Below are positions 5,457-64,000 of a stretch of DNA of 64,000 nt, one piece after another; positions within the stretch are counted from its first letter, which is position 1, and the number at the start of each line of letters is the position of its first letter. The notes beneath the pieces were generated by a model. That model worked only from the letters and a program-made list of their open reading frames with translations. It ran no database searches and had not been told where the DNA came from. Source of the DNA: Acuticoccus sp. MNP-M23. GTDB taxonomy: Bacteria > Pseudomonadota > Alphaproteobacteria > Rhizobiales > Amorphaceae. The stretch spans positions 3,588,501 through 3,652,500 of the forward strand of contig NZ_CP133480.1 of the NCBI RefSeq assembly GCF_031195445.1. The letters run 5' to 3'. A program made the position numbers and the translations under genes.

Positions 5457-7316
<1,860 letters not shown>

Positions 7317-7716
7317 GGAACTTCCCTGTGCAGAGCCAGCGGGCATCCATCCGCGTCGCAATCATTGTGCCAACAGTGCTGCAAAGTAGCGATCAGGCAT
7401 GATTTATCAGGGAAGACGCGCGGTATAAGCCCTTCTTATGAAGTCGTTTCATAGTTTTTATCAATCGCATTCGACGTTGTGACAGGCGCGAATAAGATGC
7501 TGATTTTTGAGGAATATTTGGATCAAGGCCGCCATCGAGCGGCTGGCGCGGCGAAATCTGTGGCACTGCGGTTGCAATGACCGGTCTGATCTTGCCGGCT
7601 GGCATGGCTCCGGGGTGAGCCACGGCGTGAAAGCGACACTCAGGGTGTGCCGGGCGGCAATTGTCTCAGGCTGATGCGGCGCTTTTGCGGCCGCGAAAAC
7701 CGAGGGAGTGCGCAAA
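7317..7716. other. 400-bp divergent intergenic region of the ABC/isochorismatase locus
   Basis: No gene is apparent. The left-centre part (about 7380-7520) is clearly richer in A+T than its surroundings and should hold the divergent promoters for the ATPase gene (leftward) and the binding-protein operon (rightward). No promoter hexamers could be assigned with confidence. Confidence 0.5.
7437..7453. promoter_or_regulatory. Candidate operator: perfect inverted repeat
   Basis: TATGAA (7437-7442) and TTCATA (7448-7453) form a perfect 6-bp inverted repeat separated by 5 bp, inside the A+T-rich part of the divergent intergenic region. Size and position suit a dimeric repressor or activator site. 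No regulator gene is adjacent, so the binding protein is unknown. Confidence 0.35.
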
Positions 7717-22629: not shown

Positions 22630-22965
22630 TCAAGGGCGCGGAAGGTTTCCGTGCGCTGCAATGGCCGGTTGTTGCTGTGACGCGGTGGCCGGTGCGAGGC
22701 GTTTGTCTTCGCCGGTGAGGGGAAGCTCGCTCTGGCCTTCGGTGCCGTCGTTCAGGATGGAACGCAGGGCTTCGCTGACCAGATCGCCGGTGGTGTAGGC
22801 AATTTCGGCACCTTGCTGGCAGGCCTGGGGGCGGCGGTCGCAGAAGCTGGCCGCGTCCTCGACTGCCGCGGACACGAATTCGCCCACGGGGGTCTCCGGC
22901 CGCAGCACGGAAATCGCAAAGGCGACCGCAATTACCACGAGCACCAGTTTAAATAGCGTTTTCAT
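22630..22965 (-). CDS. Small secreted or membrane-anchored protein, DUF5330-like
   Basis: A 111-residue protein with a positively charged start and one hydrophobic segment (residues 5-21), then a polar region containing two cysteines in [12 protein letters not shown]. Overall shape resembles DUF5330 proteins known from Hyphomicrobiales; the match is from memory and function is unknown. It lies 31 bp upstream of gpt on the same strand and is divergent from the peptidoglycan-binding gene. Confidence 0.7.
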
Positions 22966-23045
22966 GGAGTTAGCCTCGATTGACCTTGCGTCTGCCGAGA
23001 CTCTAGCCTTGGTAAGTTAAAGGAAAGGCGGATTGATTCGTTCAA

Positions 23046-23092
23046 ATTGCAACGGCGTGGCTGCACTGCAACACCAAAGGATTTGTTGCAAT
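23046..23092. promoter_or_regulatory. Inverted ATTGCAAC / GTTGCAAT boxes in a divergent promoter region
   Basis: ATTGCAAC (23046-23053) and GTTGCAAT (23085-23092) are exact reverse complements, with a third related ACTGCAAC at 23064-23071. They lie in the 190-bp divergent region between the DUF5330-like gene and the peptidoglycan-binding gene, which is richer in A+T. A regulator-binding role is possible but unproven. Confidence 0.3.
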
Positions 23093-23156
23093 CAGTTTAA
23101 CGTCATTTTCATTGCTCACGCACAAAAGTCTTGCCGAGGACGTGGAGGCGAGTGTC

Positions 23157-23903
23157 GTGAGTATTTCAGTCTGGCTCGAAGAACTTCCGGTTGAAAACTG
23201 GGCGGCGACGGTGGCGCGCACTGCGCGCCGGGTTCGCCGGCGGATTGCACGCAAGCCCGTGCGCACCCTTGGTTCGGGTGTCGCGGTGGTTGGCGTGCTT
23301 CTGATTGGCGCGAACGCCTTGTGGGATCAGGACAGCCGCCACCCGGCGCCGCTCTGGTCACAAGGCGGTGATGCCGGCGCGCAAGCGCGGCTGCTGGGCG
23401 CCCACGCGCCTGTGCGGCAGGCCGAGGACGATTCGGCCGGGCCCGACCCGCTGGTGGAGCAGTTTCAGGCGGGTCTGGCGGACATGGGCCTTTATGATGG
23501 CGCCGTGGACGGGATCCTTGATGAGCGCACTGCGTCGGCCATCGGACAGTTCGAGGCATCGCGCGGGCTTACGATGACGGGCAAGCCGAGCGTCGGCGCT
23601 CTGGCTGCGCTCGGCGAGGGCGCCGACGGTGGCGGCGCGGCGGACGACCAGATCGCGGCACTGACCGGCGGCTCGGAAGCGATCTCGATCACCGCTGCGT
23701 CGTTGGAGGCGATCCCGCCGGTGCGGACGGCCGCAGAGATCCAGGCCGCTCTCAACCGCGTTGGCTATGGACCGCTGACCGTAGACGGGGTGATGGGGCC
23801 GAACACGCAGTCCGCTCTCGCGCGGTTTGCCGAAAGTCAGGGGATGGCTGGCTCCGGAATGACGCCTGCGGTGCTGACTGCGCTTGCTGCTGCCAGCCAA
23901 TGA
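23157..23903 (+). CDS. Membrane-anchored peptidoglycan-binding protein (two PG_binding_1 repeats)
   Basis: A 248-residue protein with an amphipathic basic N-terminus (ARRVRRRIARKPV), one transmembrane segment (about residues 39-56), and two peptidoglycan-binding_1 repeats. The repeats read LVEQFQAGLADMGLYDGAVDGILDERT-like and EIQAALNRVGYGPLTVDGVMGPNT-like (quoted in part). GTG at 23157 is chosen because GAGGCGAG precedes it; an in-frame TTG at 23112 is less likely. It probably ties the inner membrane to the cell wall. DUF1491 follows 15 bp later. Confidence 0.78.
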   Translation: MSISVWLEELPVENWAATVARTARRVRRRIARKPVRTLGSGVAVVGVLLIGANALWDQDSRHPAPLWSQGGDAGAQARLLGAHAPVRQAEDDSAGPDPLVEQFQAGLADMGLYDGAVDGILDERTASAIGQFEASRGLTMTGKPSVGALAALGEGADGGGAADDQIAALTGGSEAISITAASLEAIPPVRTAAEIQAALNRVGYGPLTVDGVMGPNTQSALARFAESQGMAGSGMTPAVLTALAAASQ

Positions 23904-52173: not shown

Positions 52174-52249
<76 letters not shown>

Positions 52250-52473
52250 CAGCCCCCAGCACTCCCGAAACAATGTTGCCGGTGCCGGGTGTTGATGGTT
52301 CCACGGCTATCCAAAATTTTTGCTTGCAGAAACCGGTCGCGATTGTTAGCTACCGATCTTGACATCGGCGCAACAGGGTCAGTGCGCCCGAGATCGTTCA
52401 AGTCAGATGAAGCATTTTGCCTTGCGATGGTTTTATCGCAGGGCTTCGCTTGTCTGAAGGGTATGGGGTCCCA

Positions 52474-52659
52474 GTGACGACAAATCCGTTTCAGTTCATC
52501 CAGGAAGTCCGTCAGGAGACCCGCAAGGTTGTCTGGCCGACCCGGCGGGAAACGATCATCACGACCATCATGGTCTTCATGATGTGTGCGTTTGCCGCGA
52601 TCTTCTTCTTCCTGGTGGATCGACTTTTGGGTCTCGGAGTCGGTCTGATCCTGGGCTAA
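52474..52659 (+). CDS. secE: Preprotein translocase subunit SecE
   Basis: A 61-residue single-span SecE. The amphipathic helix and cytoplasmic motif FQFIQEVRQETRKVVWPTRRE precede a membrane segment (TIMVFMMCAFAAIFFFLVD). The GTG at 52474 gives the normal family length; longer readings from upstream are not needed. It starts the secE-nusG-ribosomal protein-RNA polymerase operon. Confidence 0.93.
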   Translation: MTTNPFQFIQEVRQETRKVVWPTRRETIITTIMVFMMCAFAAIFFFLVDRLLGLGVGLILG

Positions 52660-56109: not shown

Positions 56110-60249
<4,140 letters not shown>

Positions 60250-60268
60250 GCAGGGGGCTGCGGCGGCA

Positions 60269-61021
60269 ATGCTGGTTTCCTATCGTCACGAATTCATTTT
60301 CGTGAAGACGCGGAAGACGGCAGGTTCCGCCGTGGAGCTCGCCTTCGAGCCGTTCGTGAGGTCGCCGGACGCTGCGGTGTCCGGCACCCGCGACAGCTTT
60401 GCCACCGCGCAATGCGTAACGCGCGACGGCATCATCGGCGCTCGCAGCCAGGCCTTCAAAGAGAAAGCGACCTATTTTGACCACATGCAGGCGCGCGATA
60501 TCCGCCGGATGGTCGGCGCCGACGTGTGGTCGCGCTTTTTCAAGTTCTGCACCATCCGCAACCCGTGGGACAAAACTGTATCCGCGTTCTATTTCGCCCG
60601 GCCTGCGGTTCGGGAGAAGACTGTCAGTAAACAGATTGAGATATTTCGAGCTTGGCTCGGACGAGATGACGTCAGAAAATTACGCGACCGTGATATATAC
60701 TACATCAAAGATCGACCGGCGATGGATGATTACATCCGATTTCATCGGCTCTCTGAAGATGTTGAGCGCATTGCCGACAAACTCCGCTTGCCCGTCGAAA
60801 ATCTACCCGAAATTCATCGTCAATCCCGCAACCGGGCAATCGCATACGCGGACTTTTACGACGATTCCGCGCGCGAGCGTGTCGCGGACATGTACAGGTG
60901 CGAAATCGCCGATTTCGGTTGGCGTTTCGAGGGCGACGAGGACATCGCGTTTCCGAAGCCTTCTCGCCTCCCGGTGCAATCCGAGCTCGTCGGCCGCCTT
61001 GGCGCATGGCTCGGGCGCTGA
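60269..61021 (+). CDS. Sulfotransferase-family protein inserted between rpoB and rpoC
   Basis: A 250-residue protein of the sulfotransferase_2-like group. A PAPS 5'-phosphosulfate loop is readable as VKTRKTAGSAVELAF (residues 12-26), and the 3'-phosphate site as CTIRNPWDKTVSAF with Arg97 and Ser105. It would sulfate a glycan or other acceptor. It starts 19 bp after rpoB. The stretch 60590-60860 is noticeably richer in A+T than rpoB or rpoC, which suggests horizontal acquisition. It lacks a signal peptide. Confidence 0.8.
   Translation: MLVSYRHEFIFVKTRKTAGSAVELAFEPFVRSPDAAVSGTRDSFATAQCVTRDGIIGARSQAFKEKATYFDHMQARDIRRMVGADVWSRFFKFCTIRNPWDKTVSAFYFARPAVREKTVSKQIEIFRAWLGRDDVRKLRDRDIYYIKDRPAMDDYIRFHRLSEDVERIADKLRLPVENLPEIHRQSRNRAIAYADFYDDSARERVADMYRCEIADFGWRFEGDEDIAFPKPSRLPVQSELVGRLGAWLGR

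Positions 61022-64000
<2,979 letters not shown>

Follow-up and report, generated by a model that had tools for sequence, protein, structure and literature searches.

In Acuticoccus sp. MNP-M23 the genes rpoB and rpoC, encoding the β and β' subunits of RNA polymerase, are separated by an intact gene for a sulfotransferase-like protein. This gene order is real and rare, it appears to be old within one genus, and the intervening gene is of a known enzyme kind. The account we prefer, to which we give a probability of roughly two in three, is that a gene of the Sulfotransfer_2 type was inserted at this junction long ago and inherited with losses, and that it is an operon passenger probably encoding a polysaccharide sulfotransferase.

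The adjacency of rpoB and rpoC is among the steadier bacterial gene orders, and β and β' are required in equal amounts. An unrelated, fast-evolving gene that has been kept between the two, and probably lost in sister species, constitutes a natural experiment on whether this adjacency matters for expression. It would also bear on the way in which an accessory gene for surface modification becomes established in an operon with strong expression.

The Split rpoB-rpoC Junction

The window, by which is meant the whole stretch of 64,000 nucleotides that was analysed, contains the three genes in the same orientation on the plus strand. An intact rpoB (56110..60249, 1379 amino acids) is followed after 19 bp by the sulfotransferase gene (60269..61021), which starts with ATG, encodes 250 amino acids with conserved PAPS-loop and 3'-phosphate-site motifs and has no internal stop. 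After a spacer of 396 bp (61022..61417) comes rpoC, which starts at 61418 and runs past the window end at 64000; in the genome its frame is open for 4212 nucleotides, or 1404 codons (1404 amino acids), and both RNA-polymerase genes are intact. The coordinates of the reading frame and the 19-bp spacer agree with the first-pass annotation, which had described a 250-codon gene 19 bp past rpoB that splits the rpoB-rpoC pair. An Rfam search of the window found three tRNAs only.

It is hardly credible that the split is an artefact of assembly or binning, because homologues occupy the same site in two congeners, G002 and G007. Three separate genomes thus show it, and the copy of the window species lies within a contig of about 4.945 Mb in a genome of 5.16 Mb; nothing pointing to an artefact was found.

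Distribution of the Gene Order

The survey comprised 61 genomes, the window genome (G000) and 60 relatives, and in 58 of these the rpoB tail and the rpoC head were found on one contig, while neither was found in G001, G026, and G057. The readable junctions belong to seven members of the genus, to which G001 would be added had its junction been found, and to 51 relatives outside it. The distance between the rpoB and rpoC matches is 87-407 bp in 55 of the 58 genomes. The three exceptions all belong to the one genus: 1171 bp in the window genome, 953 bp in G007, and 830 bp in G002 (950 bp in G007 and 827 bp in G002 when counted from the last matched rpoB residue to rpoC). A homologue was found at the same place in two congeners, and with gap size as the criterion none of the 51 relatives outside the genus has a gap above 407 bp. 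Among named alphaproteobacterial loci, drawn with the RpoB tail of G002 as query and limited to the best 80 of 577, the rpoB-rpoC gap ranges from -50 to 388 bp and no match to the 250-amino-acid protein was found. The claim that the usual pair is almost never split is therefore borne out, with three of 58 readable junctions, all in the same genus, and none of these best 80 named loci. In a tree of RpoB/RpoC, the rows of which are 75 of the best 80 of the 577 named loci and the window, the window falls in a group of 22 rows, the other 21 of which are all Hyphomicrobiales (99*).

Homologues of the protein as such are more widespread than the split. When a five-row alignment was used as query, matches at E <= 1e-30 came from 36 of 397 genomes in the order and matches at E <= 1e-40 from three of 385 in the class, the window genome being included in both counts. 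The neighbours were checked at those matches for which a locus was fetched, with up to about 1.5 kb of flanking sequence per side. Both rpoB and rpoC stand beside the gene at four of 53 sulfotransferase loci (G000, G002 twice, and G007), and neither stands beside it at two further loci from the class-wide search; eight further loci were rpoC loci. Several side-by-side sulfotransferase genes of the same type are found in other families of the order (L134, L136, and L139, in G104, G068, and G231). In the open-licence literature, covered largely at the level of titles and abstracts and including parts of PMC6283890, no report of a gene between rpoB and rpoC was found.

The Sulfotransferase-Like Protein

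The match of the 250-amino-acid protein to the Pfam family Sulfotransfer_2 (PF03567) is weak (E 0.0017) and, at 18.9 bits, falls short of the curated threshold of 22 bits. The junction copy of the window genome is also absent from the results of a whole-genome search for this family. The junction copy of G002 scores 23.1 bits for Sulfotransfer_2, with neighbours included in the frame. No credible family was found in NCBIfam, a PDB sequence search gave nothing useful, and a first scan of genome contigs with the protein gave zero relatives. Relatives reach up to 45% identity within the genus and, where the match spans most of the protein, up to 36% elsewhere in the order.

The assignment draws on conserved residues and on a sulfotransferase-like model. 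In an alignment of 35 rows, made of 30 of 42 homologues and five further sequences, the residues K13, T14, K16, T17, H72, R97, and S105 are invariant in all 35, which upholds the earlier description of a sulfotransferase-like gene with PAPS-site motifs. The PAPS-loop lysine corresponds to K16 (35 of 35 rows), which the model places in a loop between a strand (9-12) and a helix (19-29). The 3'-phosphate site reads P99-W-D-K102-T-V-S105; at position 102, 24 of the 35 rows have R and nine have K. In a review (PMC11625862), polysaccharide sulfotransferases are described as having the PAPS-loop lysine in a strand-loop-helix, a PXXRXXS motif, a serine located in the 3'-phosphate-site helix, and a histidine or glutamate as the catalytic residue. 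H72 is the putative catalytic base of the window protein.

The AlphaFold model reaches a confident pLDDT of 87.5. When it was compared with the PDB by Foldseek, hits 1-21 were sulfotransferases, all with weak E-values (>= 4.8e-3) and low TM-scores (0.26-0.43), and guanylate kinases appeared from rank 22. Teg14 and retinol dehydratase are among these first 21 hits, and we take both to be sulfotransferases. Judged by its motifs, the window protein is a distant, sulfotransferase-like protein of the Sulfotransfer_2 type.

The length of the protein varies among the homologues. At its C-terminus the junction copy of G007 (L040:1010-1831) continues for about 50 residues past the core, and that of G002 has an extension which reaches into the rpoC leader. 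Many of the free-standing copies stop at the core, and some are longer as well.

Carriers, Non-Carriers and the Age of the Insertion

G002 and G007 have their homologues at the same site and in the same orientation as the window species, and these are 36% and 45% identical to the window protein, while the RpoB identity to the same two species is about 91-92%. The gene is absent from the junctions of G003, G004, G005, and G006, which are four of the seven genus members with a readable junction, and also from those of G008 and G009 of the family. G005 has a different Sulfotransfer_2 gene (G005:C23:262417-263067, E 3.9e-25) on the opposite strand, about 1 kb past the end of rpoC.

The carriers are scattered on the species tree. 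This tree was built from rplA, rplJ, rplL, rpoB, and rpoC in three versions, using nucleotides, codon positions 1+2, and protein. The non-carriers G004 and G006 group with the carrier G002 in all three (100/100), and the carriers form one group in 0 of 200 bootstrap trees. G003 groups with G005 with nucleotides (99/100) and with positions 1+2 (90/92), a resolution not obtained with proteins. For G000, a pairing with G007 is obtained from codon positions 1+2 (89/97) and left open by the nucleotide and protein versions, and a smaller rpoB/rpoC tree places it with G002, G004, and G006 (80/76); we are thus unsure of its place within the genus.

The trees of the sulfotransferases lend themselves to more than one reading. 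One branch separates the three junction proteins from all other rows, with a support of 91/69 in a tree of 20 rows and 64/46 in a tree of 46 rows, the latter made of 41 of the 42 homologues (one duplicate start was dropped) and five further sequences. In the larger tree the proteins of G000 and G007 pair (99/97), a paralogue in G007 (G007:C265) is nearly as close to the junction genes, and this paralogue and the junction genes form a group (98/95) separate from the 42 other rows. These trees suggest, if weakly, that the three junction genes arose from one insertion.

The low value of 64/46 would also fit a junction that is a repeated landing site, where genes were inserted independently, for instance in G000/G007 and in G002, or where alleles were swapped through the conserved flanks in rpoB and rpoC. 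The unequal spacer after rpoB, 19 bp in G000 and 78 bp in G002, points the same way, and the A+T-rich middle third described below, which is found in G000 only, could be a tract recombined in such a swap. Orientation and place are however identical in all three carriers, the junction genes and G007:C265 form the 98/95 group, and G000 is paired with G007 both in the gene tree and by codon positions 1+2 of the housekeeping genes, other versions being open or different. We consider repeated insertion or allele exchange unlikely, though not far-fetched.

One early insertion in the genus followed by later loss is the simplest account of these trees and of the scatter of the carriers. In this preferred account, a PAPS-dependent sulfotransferase gene of the Sulfotransfer_2 type would have entered the junction before the species of the genus split. 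It would then have been inherited in place, with a loss in the G004/G006 lineage at the least and perhaps another in G003/G005.

Base Composition and Rate of Change

The lowest-GC stretch of 300 bp in the window starts at 60571, within the sulfotransferase gene, and has a GC content of 0.500 against a mean of 0.646 (sd 0.035). The runner-up starts at 22891 (0.503), and further patches of low G+C in the window are found at 7231-7680, 22831-23250, and 52231-52650 (about 0.50-0.54 per 300 bp). The first-pass annotation had reported a locally lower G+C content for the gene. The dip is real, but it is limited to codons about 101-200, the middle third of the gene (60569..60868, plus strand, GC 0.50, GC3 about 0.5), and does not extend to the whole of it; the first 300 bp have a GC of 0.62 and the last 153 bp of 0.66. 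Since the dip is missing from the junction copies of G002 and G007 and from two free-standing copies of the genus, the A+T-rich tract is confined to the copy of the window species. It could be due to drift as well as being a recombinant tract.

The same annotation had taken the gene to be a recent insertion. A recent horizontal arrival in the window species would explain the low G+C of codons 101-200, but it is very unlikely and has to be given up, because G002 and G007 carry homologues at this position, neither of which shows the dip, and the carriers are not one clade. The low identity to these same-site copies (36% and 45%) is also unlike that of a recent arrival. Further points against it are that the ends of the gene are closer to the native composition, that the repeats within 60200-61500 are only short (12-19 nt), and that no match at E <= 1e-5 was found in 50,697 phage records, by which result a phage origin was rejected as well.

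The gene changes fast. Between the junction genes, 37-47% of second codon positions are different, compared with 4-5% in pieces of rpoB/rpoC from the same species, and the corresponding figures for fourfold sites are 52-57% and 33-37%. After an early insertion the gene would thus have diverged fast with its active-site residues kept.

Transcription and the Spacer Ahead of rpoC

From its position, transcription shared with rpoB at the level of RNA polymerase is plausible for the sulfotransferase gene, which would then travel as a passenger with the RNA-polymerase genes. The sulfotransferase gene of G002 has a stop codon that overlaps the start of rpoC (GTGA). There is no such overlap in the window species, with its 396 bp between the two, and G007 has a spacer as well.

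The spacer of the window species contains a terminator-like hairpin followed by T6 (61131..61175, plus strand, -22.3 kcal/mol). By the criteria set in this analysis, only one of the 26 such sites in the window ranks above it; a stricter scan did not report it. A site of -19.2 kcal/mol lies inside the sulfotransferase gene itself, which indicates that chance sites occur. With a hairpin and T6 ahead of it, rpoC may depend on read-through or on a promoter of its own, and in the window species the site may partly separate the sulfotransferase gene and rpoC. No sigma-70-type promoter was found before rpoC by a simple scan, a result that says little for alphaproteobacteria.

Sites of this kind, a hairpin with T5 or T6, are present in three of the seven genus junctions (G000, and with T5 in G003 and G005; L036 and L038). 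Among the junctions from the best 80 of the 577 named loci, less one with a gap under 20 bp, they are present in two of 79, against 0.2 per shuffled set. Attenuator-like sites in so few junctions are not general, and the idea that the rpoB-rpoC junction has a conserved attenuator was rejected.

The spacer was also considered as a repeated element and rejected as such, being present in a single copy in its own genome and without a match in ten relatives searched (a set outside of which G007-G009 fall). Compared with the eight junctions of G002-G009, it aligned with none of them better than the best-scoring of 30 shuffles did, a score that G009 equalled. The folding of the whole 396 bp is no better than that of shuffles (z -0.79).

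Probable Function

An APS kinase is found in the window genome and in G001-G006, and in eight of the ten genomes searched in all (G007 was outside this search), and is a likely source of PAPS. Matches to the protein on plasmids amount to 75 records, and the surroundings were inspected for three. The homologues on a Pseudosulfitobacter plasmid, where the annotation splits the gene into two short pieces, and on a Leisingera plasmid both lie among glycosyltransferase, GDP-sugar, and export genes. That on S. meliloti pSymB is found near a pyruvyl transferase, a KpsF/GutQ isomerase, and glycosyltransferases, with unrelated transporters alongside. Since these homologues lie near polysaccharide genes, sulfation of a surface polysaccharide is, by the context of homologues, the likeliest role. 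Both the activity and the acceptor are inferred, and the enzyme would probably act on a cell-surface or exported polysaccharide.

It can further be proposed, tentatively and as something rather less than an even chance, that a cell-surface glycan sulfotransferase has become a long-term, fast-evolving member of this operon, so that surface sulfation would follow the synthesis of RNA polymerase and thereby the growth rate. The gene would be translationally coupled to rpoC in one species and have been lost in others.

Comparison with Known Systems

The window protein resembles the bacterial proteins named 'sulfotransferase family 2 domain-containing' (Sulfotransfer_2, PF03567) in the PAPS-loop lysine, in the arginine and serine of the 3'-phosphate site, and in size. 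Its identity to three such proteins, the plasmid-borne ones whose gene neighbourhoods were inspected, is 27-34%. It differs from them in its Pfam score below the cut-off and in having P-x-x-K-x-x-S in place of P-x-x-R-x-x-S, and the junction copies differ in the C-terminal extension and in the position in the RNA-polymerase operon.

With regard to the proposed role, it can be likened to LpsS and the other surface-polysaccharide sulfotransferases of S. meliloti, surface-polysaccharide sulfation being proposed here too in a member of the Hyphomicrobiales; the likeness is one of proposed role. The S. meliloti enzymes are reported (PMC5498481) alongside genes for polysaccharides or as targets of regulation, unlike a gene in the RNA-polymerase operon.

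As for the junction, rpoB and rpoC are fused in the Helicobacteraceae and in Wolbachia, as stated in PMC7483510. That fusion and the gene order described here are both lineage-specific changes of the rpoB-rpoC junction, but while the two genes have been joined into one in those bacteria, in the genus of the window species an unrelated gene has come to lie between them.
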